Below are positions 10,151 through 32,145 of a stretch of 64,000 nt of DNA, piece by piece. Numbering within the stretch: the stretch's first letter is position 1; every line of letters begins with the position of its first letter. Position numbers and translations under genes: made by a program. The notes below the pieces were generated by a model, which did no database searches, had not been told where the DNA came from, and saw nothing but the letters and a program-made list of their open reading frames with translations. The stretch comes from Caldifarciminota bacterium (GTDB taxonomy: Bacteria > Hydrothermota > Tepidihabitantia > SM23-42): the NCBI GenBank assembly GCA_020353055.1, contig CP070686.1, forward strand, positions 557,231-621,230, given 5' to 3'.

Positions 10151-11362
10151 CTATGTCTCCGGAAGTGCCTCTCCCCCGTCAGTTGCTACTTCATGAACAA
10201 TATCCAATACTGAATCACGATGGGCCATGAATTCATCCATGTATTTCTTCTTCACTGACGGTGCACGCGGGATTTTTACCCGTAGAGGATTTATGGGTAC
10301 TCCATTTTTGTGTAGTTCAAAGTGTAAATGCGGGCCCGTCGATAACCCTGTTGAACCGAGATAGCCGATGAGTTCACCCGATTTCACTCTTTTACCCACA
10401 TAGAGATTCTTGGCAAAACGCGAGAGATGTCCGTATCTCGATCTGAAATTATTAGCATGGCGTATCTCTACCAGATTACCGTAGCCACCCTTCCAACCTC
10501 GGTACGTAACCTTACCAGCACCAATCGAGGCGATCGGAGTACCAATCGGCGCAACGTAGTCCAAACCGTGATGTGGACGCCACCTCTTCAGGATCGGATG
10601 GTACCTACGTTTGGAGTAATGTGAACTGATGTATGAAAAGCGCAATGGTGATTTGAGTAGTGATTTCCGCAATGATTGTCCTTCTTGATTGTAATAATCA
10701 TCATGACCTTCCGGATCGCGATAGTAGAACCCGTAGAAATCGCCTGCGGCTCCTTTGTAGCGTGCAAATGATATCAGCCCGTAGTCGACAAGAGCAGAAT
10801 CACAGAATATTTTTTTGAAGTATATGAAGAAAGAATCACCATCCTGGGTGTCCGTGAAAAAATCGACCTCCCAGGCAAAGACATCAGCGAAACGGATGAC
10901 TAAATGCGATGTCTCGCCGGAAGCCAGCATAGATTCATACAGCGTAGAATTAACCGTGCCGCTGACATAGGCTATTGACGTATCAAAATATGGATAATTC
11001 ATGGCAACTGTCAGATACCCGCTTTCTCTGTTCACGTAATAGGTGTTCTGGAAATTCTGCCGGTATGTTAGGTGAGAAAATCTTCCATCTTCCTTAACCA
11101 GTGAAACTGTATCACCCGGTATACATTTGCGGAACGGGAATCCTGCTTTCTCGAGCGCTGAGATTATCGCCACCCTGGATTCAGCAACCGAGAGTTTGTC
11201 GAGGATGGTCTCAAGGGTTTCGCCTTTTTCCACAACGTGTTTTGTATCGGTGACGATTGTCGTTATGATGAACTCAGGTTCTCTTGAGCAACCAGCAATA
11301 ATGAAAAATAGAATTATTAGCTGACTAAATCTGGTTTTGTACAAAGTCCCTAACCCAATCAT
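10151..11362 (-). CDS. M23-family peptidoglycan endopeptidase, predicted lipoprotein
   Basis: An M23 (LytM-type) zinc metallopeptidase that likely cuts peptidoglycan cross-links in the periplasm. The C-terminal catalytic domain shows H-x-G-L-D-Y (HHGLDYVAP), a central β-strand region, and the HLHFELH motif. The N-terminus has a membrane helix ending in a lipobox (IIAGC), so the mature protein is probably lipid-anchored. A middle region of about 230 residues resembles the N-terminal domains that cap such enzymes. I prefer the ATG at 11362 (403 residues); a TTG at 11344 right before the signal segment is an alternative. Either start overlaps the end of the Lrp-like gene, implying coupling. Confidence 0.88.
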   Translation of the reverse strand: MIGLGTLYKTRFSQLIILFFIIAGCSREPEFIITTIVTDTKHVVEKGETLETILDKLSVAESRVAIISALEKAGFPFRKCIPGDTVSLVKEDGRFSHLTYRQNFQNTYYVNRESGYLTVAMNYPYFDTSIAYVSGTVNSTLYESMLASGETSHLVIRFADVFAWEVDFFTDTQDGDSFFIYFKKIFCDSALVDYGLISFARYKGAAGDFYGFYYRDPEGHDDYYNQEGQSLRKSLLKSPLRFSYISSHYSKRRYHPILKRWRPHHGLDYVAPIGTPIASIGAGKVTYRGWKGGYGNLVEIRHANNFRSRYGHLSRFAKNLYVGKRVKSGELIGYLGSTGLSTGPHLHFELHKNGVPINPLRVKIPRAPSVKKKYMDEFMAHRDSVLDIVHEVATDGGEALPET

Positions 11363-12227
11363 CGTATATTCGATTTCTGTAGGCAAAAGAACAACCCTCA
11401 ACGGTGATTCCTTCTACCTTTGTCAGTGAATGCATGATGACTCTAAAATCGGAAAACCCCCACAGATCGAATTCTATCTGAATATAACGTTTTTTGAATC
11501 GCGACGCGATATTTCCAACAAATCCAATTTCCTTGATGATCTTTCGTAATTCTTTTATTCGAATCTTTGTCACTATAGCAAGATGGACATGCATGTAATT
11601 CTTGATAACACGCCAATCAAAGTTTGGGGCAATCGACAGAATGCCCTGTCGGTTCCTTCGCGTCCATATCAACTGCGACAGTCTCACCTCTTTTTCTGAT
11701 TTCGGTTTCTGCGTTATCCTGTTGATGAGTGTATAGCGTATCTTCTTGGTGTTACAGAATTCATTTATTAGCCGCCAATCTTCTTTTACTAAAGGCCTTG
11801 GCATCATGACATTGTATTCGTCAACCTTATATACCTCCGCATACTTCATTCCGGAAAGTTTATTCGACAGTGACCTAATTTCTCTAAGATTTTTTGCATA
11901 GAATAGCAGTGAGATATTCGGACAAACCCCTTGAGGAAAGGATAAATTTTCAACCATCTCCTCGATAAAAGGAATTGTACTACCTAATCTGAACCGTGCC
12001 GCAGCTTCACCTGCAATGCAACCCCAATACCACTTTCCACCGTGAATGCCGGGTAGAAACAACTTAAATCCATAGCCGCTAATGAGCCCGGTATCCTCAA
12101 AATTCTTGATTCTCAGTAGTATTTCTTTCTGCGATATGTGGAATTTGCTCACAAAATCGTGAACAGGTATTGTGCCTTGTAGTTCGAGCTGTCGAATGAG
12201 ATTCAAATCGATGGGGTCGATTATCAC
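11325..12227 (-). CDS. Lrp/AsnC-type HTH regulator-like protein
   Basis: A 300-residue protein starting with an Lrp/AsnC-like winged helix (residues about 5-55: DLNLIRQLELQG, HISQKEILLRIKNFEDTGLISGYG), as in leucine-responsive regulators. The remainder could be two diverged effector-type halves (about 60-160 and 165-295), but I see no clear ligand motif. It probably binds DNA in the cytosol. The GTG start at 12227 sits only 6 nt after the TATAAT box of a TTGACT-N16-TATAAT promoter, so the mRNA looks leaderless. It is upstream of and overlaps the M23 gene. Confidence 0.7.
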   Translation of the reverse strand: MIIDPIDLNLIRQLELQGTIPVHDFVSKFHISQKEILLRIKNFEDTGLISGYGFKLFLPGIHGGKWYWGCIAGEAAARFRLGSTIPFIEEMVENLSFPQGVCPNISLLFYAKNLREIRSLSNKLSGMKYAEVYKVDEYNVMMPRPLVKEDWRLINEFCNTKKIRYTLINRITQKPKSEKEVRLSQLIWTRRNRQGILSIAPNFDWRVIKNYMHVHLAIVTKIRIKELRKIIKEIGFVGNIASRFKKRYIQIEFDLWGFSDFRVIMHSLTKVEGITVEGCSFAYRNRIYDDWVRDFVQNQI

Positions 12228-12233
12228 TAGCGG

Positions 12234-12261
12234 ATTATAGATGAAATTGCAGAGAAGTCAA
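12234..12261 (-). promoter_or_regulatory. Promoter of the Lrp-like/M23 operon
   Basis: On the minus strand: TTGACT at 12261-12256, a 16-bp spacer, and TATAAT at 12239-12234. The GTG start codon at 12227 follows after 6 nt, giving a predicted leaderless transcript. Confidence 0.8.
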
Positions 12262-12360
12262 CTACTAAAAGCAGAAGCTGAGAATAGCAGAACTGACGAT
12301 AATGAAGTCCTTTGTACTTTTTTTGTTCTCGGCTTCGCTCTAACAGTAATCAGTTCGTAA

Positions 12361-12477
12361 CGATACCAACGGGATTAACGGTAATAGCGCAATCAACGAA
12401 CTGGACGATATTAACGGGACTAACGGAATTAACGAGAGTAGCGGGATTAACGAAAGTAACTGGCTAAACGAAAAAAA
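12361..12477 (+). repeat. Degenerate 9-bp tandem repeat, copy A (13 units)
   Basis: Thirteen consecutive 9-mers in perfect register, consensus CGGGATTAA (pattern CG-R-N-A-N-TAA). The flank immediately left is CAGTTCGTAA, nearly the same as at copy B (29372). It lies between the mnmE stop codon and the Lrp-like promoter. In one frame it spells Asn-Gly-Ile/Asn-Glu-Ser tripeptides, but no start codon precedes it. Confidence 0.85.
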
Positions 12478-12491
12478 ACGTTTGTCGTTCC

Positions 12492-13838
12492 TCATTTCCC
12501 GATGCAGAATTCCTCGAATATGCGGTCGAGGATTTCCTTGCGCAACACGTGTCCGGTCAGTTCACCAATTTCATTTAGTGCACAATGCATTTCATAAGCC
12601 ATGGTCTCGATCGTCGGCGCGCTTTTCGCGTCAACCAGGCACTTCCTTGCGCGGGTAAGCGCATCAATATGGCGGTGCCGCGTAATCAGTACGTCATGCG
12701 TGAGATTGTCAGGCGCGAGAGAACGCTTAATACCATCCTCAAGCGTGTCAATATTCTTACCGGTCATGGCGGATATCTTTATCGAATCGGATAATATGGT
12801 TTCATTACTGAGACGGACGTTGAGATCTATCTTATTTACGATAAGCAATTTCGGTCTGTTTTTAACGAGATTATACAAGTGAATGTCTTCCTCGTTCATG
12901 GATTCTGATCCGTCGAACATCATGAGTATCAAATCAGCATTCTGGATGAGCACTTTCGTTCTCTGCTGCGCGATTTCGTCAGGCCCGGTTGCTTTGTTGA
13001 AAACACCTGCGGTGTCGTACAGTAAGACGTGAATGTCTCCTATTTGCATGCTCTCCTCGAGAAAATCGCGCGTCGTACCGGGTTTCTCGTGGACGATTGC
13101 GCGCTCATGCCCGACGAGCCGGTTAAACAAAGTTGATTTACCAACATTGGCGCGTCCCGTTATCAAGACGCGATACCCGGACTTGATCTTTGTGCCAACC
13201 GATGCACCTTTGAGTAATTCATCGATTTCATTCACAATTCCGATGAGGCTGGTTACTACCCTCCCACGATCATACTCTACACCTTCTTCCTCAGGAAAAT
13301 CTATGTCAGCTTCAACCAGGAATAACGCATCAACTATCTTCGAACGAATATCATATATCTTCTCCGAAAGTTTTCCTTCGTATTGGAGTATGGCTAATCT
13401 ACGCGCCTGCTCGCACGTTGCGTTGACCGTGTCCAGAACTGCCTCTGCCTGTATGAGATCGATCTTTCCGTTAATCAGCGCACGCCTGGTGAATTCTCCC
13501 CGTCGCGCTATTCTCGCCCCGAGTTCATTGAAAGTTCGCACCAGGCGATCAACAATCAAGGGATTACCATGGCAAGAAACCTCAACAACATCTTCGCCAG
13601 TGTAGGAATTTGGTTTATCAAATATTACGGCCAATGCGGTGTCGATCTTCTCGCCGGTTTTTGGGTCGACAGCTTGACCATAGTAGACATGATGTGATTC
13701 ATATTCAACAGTTGGCTGCGCGGGTTTGAATATCTTTTGCAGAAAGGGTATTGCCTGGTTACCGCTGAGTCTGATTACGGCCACGCTCGAATGACCGGAT
13801 GGAGTTGTACAAGCAACTATCGTATCATTTGGGTTCAT
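12492..13838 (-). CDS. mnmE: tRNA modification GTPase MnmE
   Basis: A 448-residue GTPase which, with MnmG, adds the aminomethyl or carboxymethylaminomethyl group to wobble U34 of certain tRNAs. The N-terminal folate-binding domain begins TIVACTTPSGHSSVAVIRLSG. The G domain shows GRANVGKSTLFN (G1), TTRD (G2), DTAG (G3) and NKID (G4). The C-terminal catalytic CIGK (Cys-x-Gly-Lys) is present at the very end. It is the last gene of the rpmH operon and overlaps the khpB 3' end by 14 bp. Downstream is repeat A rather than a clear terminator. Confidence 0.97.
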   Translation of the reverse strand: MNPNDTIVACTTPSGHSSVAVIRLSGNQAIPFLQKIFKPAQPTVEYESHHVYYGQAVDPKTGEKIDTALAVIFDKPNSYTGEDVVEVSCHGNPLIVDRLVRTFNELGARIARRGEFTRRALINGKIDLIQAEAVLDTVNATCEQARRLAILQYEGKLSEKIYDIRSKIVDALFLVEADIDFPEEEGVEYDRGRVVTSLIGIVNEIDELLKGASVGTKIKSGYRVLITGRANVGKSTLFNRLVGHERAIVHEKPGTTRDFLEESMQIGDIHVLLYDTAGVFNKATGPDEIAQQRTKVLIQNADLILMMFDGSESMNEEDIHLYNLVKNRPKLLIVNKIDLNVRLSNETILSDSIKISAMTGKNIDTLEDGIKRSLAPDNLTHDVLITRHRHIDALTRARKCLVDAKSAPTIETMAYEMHCALNEIGELTGHVLRKEILDRIFEEFCIGK

Positions 13839-28373: not shown

Positions 28374-29198
28374 GTGCCGGAACTCCCAGAAGTTGAGACT
28401 ATCGCGCGCGAGTTACGTCCTAAAATCCGTGGCAAGACGATCACCAACTGCATTGTATTGCGGCCAGATGTCATTGCCCATCCCAAACCACAGCAGTTCT
28501 GTAATGCTATAGTTGGCGATAAAATCCAGGAAGTCAGCAGAAGGGCAAAATATTTGATCTTGCACCTCGGTGACGAGAAAAAATTAGTCTTCCACCTGCG
28601 CCTCTCCGGGACCATGGTCATTGGGCCATCGCATAGTGAACCTCATAGATTTTCACGTCTTGTCTTAGTGCTGAATGACTGCCAGCTACTGTTCAACGAG
28701 CCGCGGGTGCTGGGCCGCGTATACCTGATAAGAGCAGATGACATTCCACCCAATTTGAAGGGATTCTACAACCTTGGATGTGAGCCGATATCCGATGATT
28801 TCACAGCGGATTACTTGAAGACCAAGATAAAACATAGGAAGGCCAGGATTAAATCACTTCTCCTCGATCAAAACATCTGCGCCGGCATGGGCAATATCTA
28901 TTCTGACGAAGCTCTTTTCCGCGCCGGCATCAGACCTTTAAGGAGGGCTAACCGAATAACGTTGAAAGAGATAAGTAAACTTACAAAAGCGTTGAGAGAC
29001 ATCATAACCGAAGGGATTCTTAACTTCGGCACATCTGTTTCAGATTACACAAGGACGAACGGAAAAAACGGCAACTTTCAGAATTTTCTCTGCGTTTACG
29101 GGCGCGAGGGTGAACCTTGTAGAAAGTGCGGTACATTGATAGTGCTCAAAAAGATCGGCAACCGCGGCACGAGATACTGCCCGAAGTGCCAACGTTGA
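28374..29198 (+). CDS. mutM: Formamidopyrimidine-DNA glycosylase
   Basis: A 274-residue Fpg/MutM base-excision repair enzyme (8-oxoguanine and formamidopyrimidine glycosylase/AP lyase). After the initiator come the catalytic Pro-Glu (PELPEVETIARELRP), HLRLSGTM, the H2TH segment ICAGMGNIYSDEALFRAGI, and a C-terminal zinc finger C-x2-C...C-x2-C (PCRKCG, YCPKC). The GTG start at 28374 is fixed by the need for Pro2. It begins 24 bp after the AsmA-like stop. Confidence 0.97.
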   Translation: MPELPEVETIARELRPKIRGKTITNCIVLRPDVIAHPKPQQFCNAIVGDKIQEVSRRAKYLILHLGDEKKLVFHLRLSGTMVIGPSHSEPHRFSRLVLVLNDCQLLFNEPRVLGRVYLIRADDIPPNLKGFYNLGCEPISDDFTADYLKTKIKHRKARIKSLLLDQNICAGMGNIYSDEALFRAGIRPLRRANRITLKEISKLTKALRDIITEGILNFGTSVSDYTRTNGKNGNFQNFLCVYGREGEPCRKCGTLIVLKKIGNRGTRYCPKCQR

Positions 29199-29371: not shown

Positions 29372-29479
29372 CGCTACTAACGATATTAGCGAAAATATCG
29401 GGCATAACGAAGTTAAGTAAATTAACGGGAGCAACGAGCTAAACGGCATTAACGAAAGTAGCGAGATTAACGTATTAAT
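29372..29479 (+). repeat. Degenerate 9-bp tandem repeat, copy B (12 units)
   Basis: Twelve consecutive 9-mers with the same pattern as copy A (CG-R-N-A-N-TAA, for example CGGCATTAA, CGAGATTAA). It is preceded by CAGTTGGTAG, matching copy A's flank at 8 of 10 positions. It runs toward the valS promoter. Register is lost after 29479 (an 8-nt unit), and one more unit-like 9-mer follows. Confidence 0.85.
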
Positions 29480-29547: not shown

Positions 29548-32145
29548 ATGATAGAATTTCCCACTCGTTATGACCCTGGCGGAATCGAGAAAAAATGGTA
29601 CCGTTTTTGGATGGAATCGAAGTTCTTTACGCCTGACGCCAGCTCTAAGAAACCGCCCTACACCATCATGATACCGCTGCCCAATGTGACGGGACGCCTT
29701 ACTCTTGGGCATGTGTTGAACAATTCTCTGCAGGACATACTGATAAGGTACAAGAAGCTTTCGGGCCACGAAACACTGTGGCTAATGGGTATGGACCATG
29801 CGGGCATAGCTACGCAGGTGGTGGTAGAAGAAAAACTGCGCAGTCAGGGAATGACTAAAGAGGACCTGGGTCGTGAAAAATTCATAGAGGAAGTCTGGAA
29901 ATGGAAAGAAGAATACGCGAAGATCATCAGAGGACAATTACAGAAAGCTGGATACTCACTGGACTGGTCACGCGAACAGTTTACGTTATCTGAGAATTAT
30001 TCCAAGAAAGTGATAAAGGTATTCGTCGACCTGTACAATAGAGGGCTGATTTATCGCGGCGAATATATTATCAACTGGTGCCCAAGGTGTCTGACCGCAC
30101 TATCTGACGAACAGGTCGAGACCGAAGAGAAACCCGGTAAGCTATACTATATCAAGTACCCGGTGGTCGGCAGTGATGAATCAATAACCGTTGCCACAAC
30201 AAGACCCGAAACAATGCTCGGTGATACGGCCGTTTGCGTTAATCCTCAAGACAAGCGTTACAGAAGGTTTATCGGCCGACGGGCTATCCTGCCGATCATG
30301 GAGAGGGAAATACAAATCATTTCCGATGAATATGTTGACCCGGAATTCGGAACCGGTGCGTTGAAGGTCACTCCAGCGCACGACCCATTTGATTTCGAAT
30401 TGGCAAAAAAACACAAGTTAGAATTCATCGATATCATGAACCCGGATGGTACTCTGAACGCACTCACCAGAGGGTTCAACGGGCAGGACCGTTATGAAGC
30501 AAGAAAGCAGATCATCGAACAGCTGAAACGGTCTGGCTTGCTGGAAAAAGTAGAGAAATACAAATTGCCTCTATCCAAGTGCGAACGCTGCGACACGGCA
30601 ATTGAGCCGCGAATATCAAAACAATGGTTTGTGCGAATGAAACCGCTCGCCGAACCGGCGCTGAAAGTTGTAAAGGGAAACAAGGTACGTATATTTCCAA
30701 AGCGATGGGTCAATCTATATAATTATTGGATGGAAAATGTGCGGGACTGGTGCATCTCCCGACAACTCTGGTGGGGACATCGAATACCAGTGTATTACTG
30801 CAATTCATGCTATGATCCTGACAGCGCCGATTCAGAACAGGGCATCATGGTTTCTGAAGCAAAACCCGCTCGATGCACAAACTGCGGTTCAAATGAAATC
30901 TATCAGGATGAAGACGTCCTCGACACCTGGTTCTCTTCCTGGCTCTGGCCTTTTGCTACGCTCGGTTGGCCTGACGATAGCAAGGATTACCGTCGTTTCT
31001 ACCCCACACAAACACTTGTTACGGGGTGGGATATAATCTACTTATGGGTTGCACGTATGATCATGGCAGGGCTCGAATTTACCAAGACAGTTCCGTTCAC
31101 CAACGTCATGTTTCATGTCATGGTCCGCGATGAAAAGGGAAGAAAGATGTCGAAAAGTCTGGGTAATTCACCGGACCCAGCGAATCTCATAGAGAAGTAT
31201 GGAGCCGATGCCTTGAGGTTTGGTTTGTTACTGATAACACCGCGTGAACAGGATGTTCTCTTTCGGGAAAATTCGATTGACGTCGGGAGAAAATTCTGTA
31301 ATAAGCTATGGAATGCCGCGCGCTTGATATCCATGACTCTGGAGCAGGGTGAAGCATTCGATCCCAAAAAAATATCATTATACGACGCATGGATTATAGA
31401 GCGTTTCAACCTGCTACTAATGAAGATCCAAGGGCATTTTAATTCTTTTGAAATAAATGCAATAACCCGGGAACTTTATGATTTTGTCTGGCATACCTTC
31501 TGCGACTGGTACCTGGAATTTCTTAAGATAAAACCTTCCCCGGCTGCAAGACACCTTTTGAAGCAACTGTTGATAGTGCTACACCCGTTCATGCCGTTCG
31601 TCACCGAAGAATTATACCAGAAGTTCGGTTTCAGCCAAAAGAGCATCATGCTTGAGACATGGCCTGATGAGATTCCCATCACAAATAAGGCAGCGCAAGT
31701 GGATCAACTAGTAAGGTTGATTGAGGAGATACGTAATGTCCGCGGAATTTTCAACATAGGGGTAAAAGACAAAATCACGGTGATTATCGACACGAAAGAT
31801 GACATGGCCGTTTTTCTAAAGGAAAACGAGGATACCATAAAAAGACTATCGGGCGCCGGAGACGTGAAGTACGGTCCACCCGGTAAAGAATCCCTCGCCA
31901 GCATCATACTGCCGGAGATAGAGTGCTATGTAATCCTGTCGGGCATCGACCTCGCAAGGGAAAAGGAACGTCTTCACAATGAGGTCGATTTCCTCACAAA
32001 ACGCATCGACGAAATAAAACATCGGCTTAATAATCCAAGTTACGTGAACAAAGCAAGTGAGATAACCAGACAGAAGGAAAAAGAACGTCTTGAAACCTTC
32101 TTGAAGAAAAAAGAAGGTATTCAGAAAGCGATGAAAAGAATATGA
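29548..32145 (+). CDS. valS: Valine--tRNA ligase
   Basis: An 865-residue class I aminoacyl-tRNA synthetase. The HIGH-type motif appears as PNVTGRLTLGHVLNN, the KMSKS loop as GRKMSKSLGN, and the CP1 editing domain as TTRPETMLGDTAVCV. Cys pairs near residues 415-450 (CNSC, CTNC) suggest a zinc knuckle. A C-terminal coiled coil is present. The start at 29548 (MIEFPTRYDPGGIEKKW) lies just after the -10 box; the ORF's earlier TTG/ATG codons fall within the promoter. The stop overlaps the next gene (ATGA). Confidence 0.97.
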   Translation: MIEFPTRYDPGGIEKKWYRFWMESKFFTPDASSKKPPYTIMIPLPNVTGRLTLGHVLNNSLQDILIRYKKLSGHETLWLMGMDHAGIATQVVVEEKLRSQGMTKEDLGREKFIEEVWKWKEEYAKIIRGQLQKAGYSLDWSREQFTLSENYSKKVIKVFVDLYNRGLIYRGEYIINWCPRCLTALSDEQVETEEKPGKLYYIKYPVVGSDESITVATTRPETMLGDTAVCVNPQDKRYRRFIGRRAILPIMEREIQIISDEYVDPEFGTGALKVTPAHDPFDFELAKKHKLEFIDIMNPDGTLNALTRGFNGQDRYEARKQIIEQLKRSGLLEKVEKYKLPLSKCERCDTAIEPRISKQWFVRMKPLAEPALKVVKGNKVRIFPKRWVNLYNYWMENVRDWCISRQLWWGHRIPVYYCNSCYDPDSADSEQGIMVSEAKPARCTNCGSNEIYQDEDVLDTWFSSWLWPFATLGWPDDSKDYRRFYPTQTLVTGWDIIYLWVARMIMAGLEFTKTVPFTNVMFHVMVRDEKGRKMSKSLGNSPDPANLIEKYGADALRFGLLLITPREQDVLFRENSIDVGRKFCNKLWNAARLISMTLEQGEAFDPKKISLYDAWIIERFNLLLMKIQGHFNSFEINAITRELYDFVWHTFCDWYLEFLKIKPSPAARHLLKQLLIVLHPFMPFVTEELYQKFGFSQKSIMLETWPDEIPITNKAAQVDQLVRLIEEIRNVRGIFNIGVKDKITVIIDTKDDMAVFLKENEDTIKRLSGAGDVKYGPPGKESLASIILPEIECYVILSGIDLAREKERLHNEVDFLTKRIDEIKHRLNNPSYVNKASEITRQKEKERLETFLKKKEGIQKAMKRI

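Follow-up and report, generated by a model that had tools for sequence, protein, structure and literature searches.

Degenerate 9-bp tandem arrays with gene-directed polarity in intergenic regions of candidate division WOR-3 bacteria

Results

Two degenerate 9-bp arrays flank mnmE and valS

Two degenerate tandem repeats, copies A and B, found in a 64,000-nucleotide stretch of DNA from an uncultured bacterium (the window), are members of a family of polar intergenic arrays that is specific to this lineage and lies close to genes. The window comprises positions 557231–621230 of contig C1 of genome G000, on a single 2.69-Mb contig. Relatives of its MnmE protein assign the window to candidate division WOR-3; among named records, CP070802.1 (bin1351) comes closest, with an MnmE 78% identical. 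Copy A is located between mnmE and a conserved neighbour gene; copy B has a mutM-like gene on one side and valS on the other:

11325–12227, minus strand: gene next to mnmE, without a Pfam match, kept beside mnmE across the genus
12234–12261, minus strand: sigma-70-like promoter TTGACT-16-TATAAT of the gene at 11325–12227, conserved in 8 of 8 genus members
12350–12360, plus strand: left edge of copy A, TCAGTTCGTAA, one weak unit with a TAA end; the CAGTT that it shares with copy B is no terminus of the family at large
12361–12477, plus strand: copy A, a 13-unit 9-bp array, CGRNANTAR on this strand; G003 and G007 have orthologous arrays, identically placed and oriented
12492–13838, minus strand: mnmE (tRNA modification GTPase), whose stop codon and the right end of copy A are 14 bp apart
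28374–29198, plus strand: gene of the formamidopyrimidine-DNA glycosylase family (mutM-like), left of copy B
29372–29479, plus strand: copy B, a 12-unit array with one unit broken, its right end toward the valS promoter
29548–32145, plus strand: valS (valyl-tRNA synthetase), toward which copy B is directed

The units of copy A are, in order, CGATACCAA, CGGGATTAA, CGGTAATAG, CGCAATCAA, CGAACTGGA, CGATATTAA and CGGGACTAA, followed by CGGAATTAA, CGAGAGTAG, CGGGATTAA again, CGAAAGTAA, CTGGCTAAA and CGAAAAAAA. An initial annotation of the window had described 13 units in strict 9-bp register, and this was borne out: scored against an 11-unit consensus, the array reaches 93 of 99 at best, and the highest-scoring of twelve 64-kb Markov windows reached 63. 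The CG that it placed at unit positions 1–2 is kept in 12 of the 13 units and fails in one; its 'usually TAA' at positions 7–9 was generous, as strict TAA is found in 6 units and TAA or TAG in 8.

The right end of copy A points toward the mnmE stop codon, and the CGTTANTNY strand therefore reads outward from mnmE. The promoter at 12234–12261 lies about 100 bp past the left end of the array, and the protein encoded at 11325–12227 may, by our reading of it, be winged-helix/AsnC-like. An array is also present at the copy B junction in G003 (stretch L171). The RNA of copy A has no stable fold (z-scores −0.38 and −0.07), the plus strand of copy B has a fold z of −2.1, and an Rfam search of positions 12000–12800 gave no match up to E = 1.

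Family size and distribution

A search of the G000 genome with the pattern AACGRNANTAACGRNANTAACG, one mismatch allowed, revealed 161 forward and 50 reverse matches (211 in total; control, 0). In 542 kb of chosen stretches fetched from this genome we found 81 arrays of at least five units (Markov control, 0), only one of them within a gene as called by our simple caller. The initial annotation had suggested a defined element placed twice, to be looked for genome-wide in intergenic sites and abandoned if there were no further copies and no conservation in relatives. Both further copies and conservation were found, and the element is indeed defined and intergenic, but 'twice' was too low: about 80–90 arrays occur in 542 kb of the 2.69-Mb genome, and those of the whole genome number roughly a hundred.

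The CAGTT left flank is common to copies A and B (CAGTTCGTAACG and CAGTTGGTAGCG), as had been noted, but it is not a flank shared by the family. Of the 89 arrays in the G000 stretches 10 have it, and in two relatives it is not commoner on the left than on the right; therefore it is not an element terminus.

The arrays of G000 are strongly clustered, at C1:837–887 kb (~50 kb) and 1190–1220 kb (~30 kb), and each cluster has one prevailing orientation over genes of both strands. At about 10500–12100 of stretch L013 (C1:1195529–1197079), two back-to-back inverted array pairs surround a reading frame which, as we called it, runs into one of the arrays; the gene just ahead of this frame has what we read as a C-terminal-sorting-like tail.

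The same pattern gave 390 matches in G003 and 123 in G007, the two closest relatives, and none in five further genus members. A looser AACG-N5 pattern matched 27 of 147 genomes of the phylum, distant families included, with very low control counts except in G128. AACG repeated every 9 bases is patchy across the phylum and its spacers are species-specific: the units read CGRNANTAR in the clade of the window, AACG[AC]TC[TC] in G017 and AACGARAYR in G130. Across the phylum, nothing but AACG and the 9-bp step is retained. In the literature searched, neither intergenic repeats of WOR-3 nor degenerate tandem repeats were the subject of any paper.

Other degenerate short-period families (AGTATCN, 7 bp; an AATTCG type, 7 bp; AGAAGCTN, 8 bp) lie between the arrays or to their left, at L157, L161 and L165 of G003 and at C1:753085–753250 and 883848–883991 of G000, so that the intergenic DNA resembles an ordered succession of degenerate arrays of different kinds. 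G005, a genus member without 9-bp arrays, is the richest in AGTATCN arrays (18 matches), as if species favoured different degenerate families.

Unit structure

Positions 1, 2 and 8 of the unit are 94–96% constant and positions 5 and 7 about 84% constant, while positions 3, 4, 6 and 9 vary nearly independently of one another. Adjacent units resemble each other less than expected: at lag 1 there are no identical pairs (4.6 expected) and 13 pairs with one difference (30.5 expected), and within arrays identical pairs at any lag number 4 (15.3 expected). Under within-array shuffling the dissimilarity of neighbours has P of about 0.001. Identical neighbours are significantly depleted in G000 and G003, and most other lineages deviate in the same direction; the effect is reversed in G025 (4 identical neighbours, 1.8 expected), and 7 of 8 lineages have no excess of them. 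Fresh slippage or unequal exchange therefore did not make these arrays, and on a simple reading near-identical neighbours are lost through slippage deletion.

The arrays contain 4.3–5.0 distinct units per five. Viral contigs were rejected as further carriers, since their AACG period-9 matches are overwhelmingly coding low-complexity repeats, in open coding frames and mostly with 1–3 distinct units of five, a slippage signature. The idea of uptake sequences was also rejected; isolated units are only weakly enriched in intergenic DNA.

Polarity and flanking elements

When the TAACG strand is read from left to right, the nearer gene is the right-hand one in 123 of 149 arrays from three species. 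This polarity is present at all intergenic lengths, including regions shorter than 300 bp (23 of 30). Where arrays of opposite strands adjoin in one junction, the order is minus-plus in ten cases and plus-minus in none. The gene end faced by the array is either a stop (median distance 47 bp) or a start, and the CGTT strand reads away from the gene at both types of border. Among 47 arrays facing a start, 34 have a sigma-70-like promoter (at least 9/12) between array and gene, compared with 7 in shuffles; the −35 boxes of these promoters are mostly 0–40 bp from the array.

The two flanks of the arrays also differ. TTGAC was counted 50 times on the right and 11 times on the left, GCAATCTC-type elements 34 times on the left and once on the right, and degenerate arrays of the AGAAG type 23 times on the left and never on the right. 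In more than one WOR-3 family (L209–L216 of G074; many G000 arrays), a palindrome-like element, GTCATTGCGAG...GCAATCTC, stands immediately before arrays, as if element and array formed a composite.

Neither replication nor transcription accounts for the orientation: it is independent of GC skew, and between tandem genes of G000 27 arrays have the same orientation as the genes and 23 the opposite one. Outside the clade of the window, G074/075 have the same polarity with a slightly G-rich outward strand, and the polarity test was not significant in G017 and G025. In G130, from a distant family (L243–L260), the arrays are on the sense strand and several are immediately upstream of a Shine-Dalgarno sequence, unlike those of the window's clade.

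Conservation between species

At orthologous junctions of the three species where the intergenic region of each member of the pair measured at least 120 bp, an array was present in both in 23 cases, in one only in 5 and 6, and in neither in 20 (Fisher P = 2.5e-5); this comparison is biased, because the stretches of all species were chosen for holding arrays, though it is internal to overlapping segments. The coinciding arrays share their orientation in 22 of 23 cases. Identity at 4-fold sites among the three species is 0.41–0.50 (random, 0.27). In alignment tests, which rest on short arrays, unit-level homology was detectable in 4 of 22 orthologous pairs, copy A in G003 included, while the other 18 behaved as random pairs at the variable positions; unit number also differs between orthologous arrays. 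Thus position and orientation are kept between species while unit content turns over, and place and core outlast the variable letters. Together with the family hits, this supports the suspicion of the initial annotation that the strict 9-bp register is under constraint while the middle of the unit is free to vary.

In G005, which has no 9-bp arrays, the mnmE junction is bare and compact, so the array at this junction is probably a gain, and a dispensable one. The arrays as a family are dispensable too, given the five close relatives that have none.

Composition of the outward RNA

In the clade of the window, the number of YC dinucleotides per 78 nt is 10.3 in the outward RNA, 3.9 in the inward RNA and 8.6 in array-free gene flanks, so that the outward gain over such flanks is modest. 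C exceeds G in 72% of cases for the outward and in 16% for the inward RNA. Rho (PF07497) is encoded in 8 of 8 genomes of the genus. An intrinsic-terminator-like hairpin was found at 8 of 306 gene ends tested in G000, G003 and G007. Replacement of intrinsic terminators by arrays was considered and set aside, as hairpins were too few to compare (2 of 57 ends with an array and 6 of 249 without).

Discussion

Comparison with known repeat systems

The closest parallel is provided by the GGGNATC arrays of Xanthomonas and Nostoc, which lie nearer to the 5' neighbouring ORF whatever the orientation of that ORF (Rehm et al., 2015, PMC4692102). They are found at the same place in a relative in 83% of cases, with unit number changing, and inverted pairs occur; the unit is 7 bp long, G-rich and proposed to form G-quadruplexes (PMC4692102). 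The WOR-3 arrays are likewise many, short, intergenic and conserved in position, with inverted pairs, and the rule of proximity to the 5' ORF holds for their CGTT strand (the 123 of 149 arrays above). However, their unit has 9 bp, four of its nine positions are variable, identical neighbours are avoided, and the sequence is unrelated. Judged from position frequencies, CGRNANTAR has no constant G-run on either strand that could form a quadruplex. The same polarity without G-tracts argues that the rule does not stem from quadruplexes.

TAACTGA heptamers are known from Beggiatoaceae, Cyanobacteria and Bacteroidetes, with about 170 intergenic sets (MacGregor, 2015, PMC4679880); they are exact 7-mers, mainly at start codons (PMC4679880). 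Patchy taxonomy, gene-directed orientation and occasional splitting by related units are common to both systems, and the G130 arrays resemble these heptamers in lying just upstream of ribosome-binding sites. The WOR-3 arrays differ in being degenerate, of 9-bp period and, in the clade of the window, equally common at stop ends.

REPs are palindromic and are mobilised by Y1 (RAYT) transposases. REP/BIME elements are similarly intergenic, patchy and present in many copies, and the REP-like GTCATTGCGAG...GCAATCTC lies directly to the left of many WOR-3 arrays, but the WOR-3 unit is directional, not palindromic, and its arrays do not track the presence of Y1_Tnp. In the clade of the window the outward RNA recalls rut sites in being unstructured, richer in C than in G and regular in YC, but in G074/075 the composition is opposite, and rut sites have no fixed CGTT core and a C spacing wider than 9. 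Calothrix has tandem heptanucleotides of the STRR type. As cited in PMC4692102, they resemble the WOR-3 arrays in that several short tandem-unit families occur within one genome and differ in having 7-bp units, not 9-bp ones; neither polarity nor neighbour statistics appear to be given for them there.

Possible nature of the arrays

We tentatively propose, as a possible and far from assured reading, that the arrays act as outward-facing boundary (insulator) elements of transcription units, perhaps of a Rho type, a function that we infer. In favour of it are the genome-wide intergenic placement of the arrays, their polarity, the promoters between array and start, the unlike left and right flanks, and the conservation of position while the variable letters change. 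The RNA read outward would be either read-through past a stop or divergent antisense transcript from a promoter. Unstructured and pyrimidine-rich, (CGUUANUNY)n, with YC about every 9 nt, it could load Rho or some other RNA- or DNA-binding protein for which the CGTT core is the signal. Variation at the free positions would then do no harm, and slippage deletion would clear away near-identical neighbours. The Rho-type version is suggested by the regular YC and C excess of the outward RNA, the lack of a stable fold in copy A, the presence of Rho throughout the genus and the near absence of intrinsic terminators. Against it stand the fixed CGTT core, which Rho does not need, and a YC spacing of 9 nt, below the 11–13 nt used by RhoTermPredict (PMC6407284). 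The opposite composition in G074/075, the sense-strand arrays of G130 and the lack of significant polarity in G017 and G025 also speak against the proposal, as do the dispensability of the arrays and the modest gain in outward YC.

Nearly as likely, the arrays may be non-functional, self-perpetuating intergenic repeats whose units are shuffled through TAACG microhomology or by some enzyme. Polarity would then arise by directional accretion, other repeats would insert on the left, and slippage would delete near-identical neighbours. Units indeed look like random draws from a genome-wide pool (at longer lags they are about as alike as units of other arrays), a few arrays are clear copies, flanks included, and the species-specific vocabularies, the close relatives without arrays and the other repeat families on the left side agree with this explanation. 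Yet polarity persists in intergenic regions below 300 bp, the arrays stand close against promoters and stops, and the constant positions outlive a near-saturating divergence. No known engine was found either: RVT_1 was not detected in any of the 8 genus genomes, which led us to reject a reverse-transcriptase origin, and RAYT mobilisation was rejected because Y1_Tnp (subfamilies pooled) is present in 8 of 8 genomes, equally in species without arrays, while arrays are present in 3. In third place, and rather unlikely, the array could be bound by a sequence-specific DNA protein of the nucleoid or polar-roadblock type that recognises AACG/CGTT at 9-bp steps, any effect on transcription being secondary. 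The retention of just this core and step across the phylum would fit such a protein, as would the lack of a stable fold and of an Rfam match for copy A; less easily explained are a 9-bp period out of phase with the DNA helix and the mild enrichment of isolated single units in intergenic DNA, and the profiles sought (RVT_1, Y1_Tnp and Rho) named no candidate.

Two further explanations are already contradicted by the data. The initial annotation had offered old unequal exchange followed by drift as its alternative, and an ordinary VNTR born of slippage or unequal exchange and later mutated would account for the tandem register and for the unit-number differences between orthologous arrays. It predicts similar neighbours, whereas adjacent units are less alike than random ones in G000 and G003, most lineages have no excess of identical neighbours, and the slippage signature of the viral AACG repeats is missing from these arrays; we consider it improbable. 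A coding repeat (an N-[DEG]-x tripeptide) has in its favour that the frame AAC GRN ANT is open by construction, but the arrays are intergenic, and codon position 2 is variable although the third position (the C of CG) ranks with the best-conserved bases. Chance is opposed by the consensus score of copy A, well above the Markov maximum. For both, the probability is negligible.

Returning to the boundary elements, a bolder and doubtful extension would be a phylum-level class of directional boundary arrays. A dedicated factor would read AACG/CGTT alone at 9-nt steps, neighbouring units would have to differ, both ends of transcription units would be insulated, and spacers would be species-specific dialects; the GGGNATC polarity law would then be general and independent of quadruplexes.

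Significance

The dissimilarity of neighbouring units, unusual as a statistic, sets these arrays apart from repeats born of slippage and is measurable in whatever genome is at hand. Should the arrays be boundaries, they would illustrate how transcription units are kept apart in a genome with almost no detectable intrinsic terminators. Moreover, the polarity rule of the G-quadruplex heptamers recurs here in an unrelated sequence without G-tracts, and thus the rule needs another cause.
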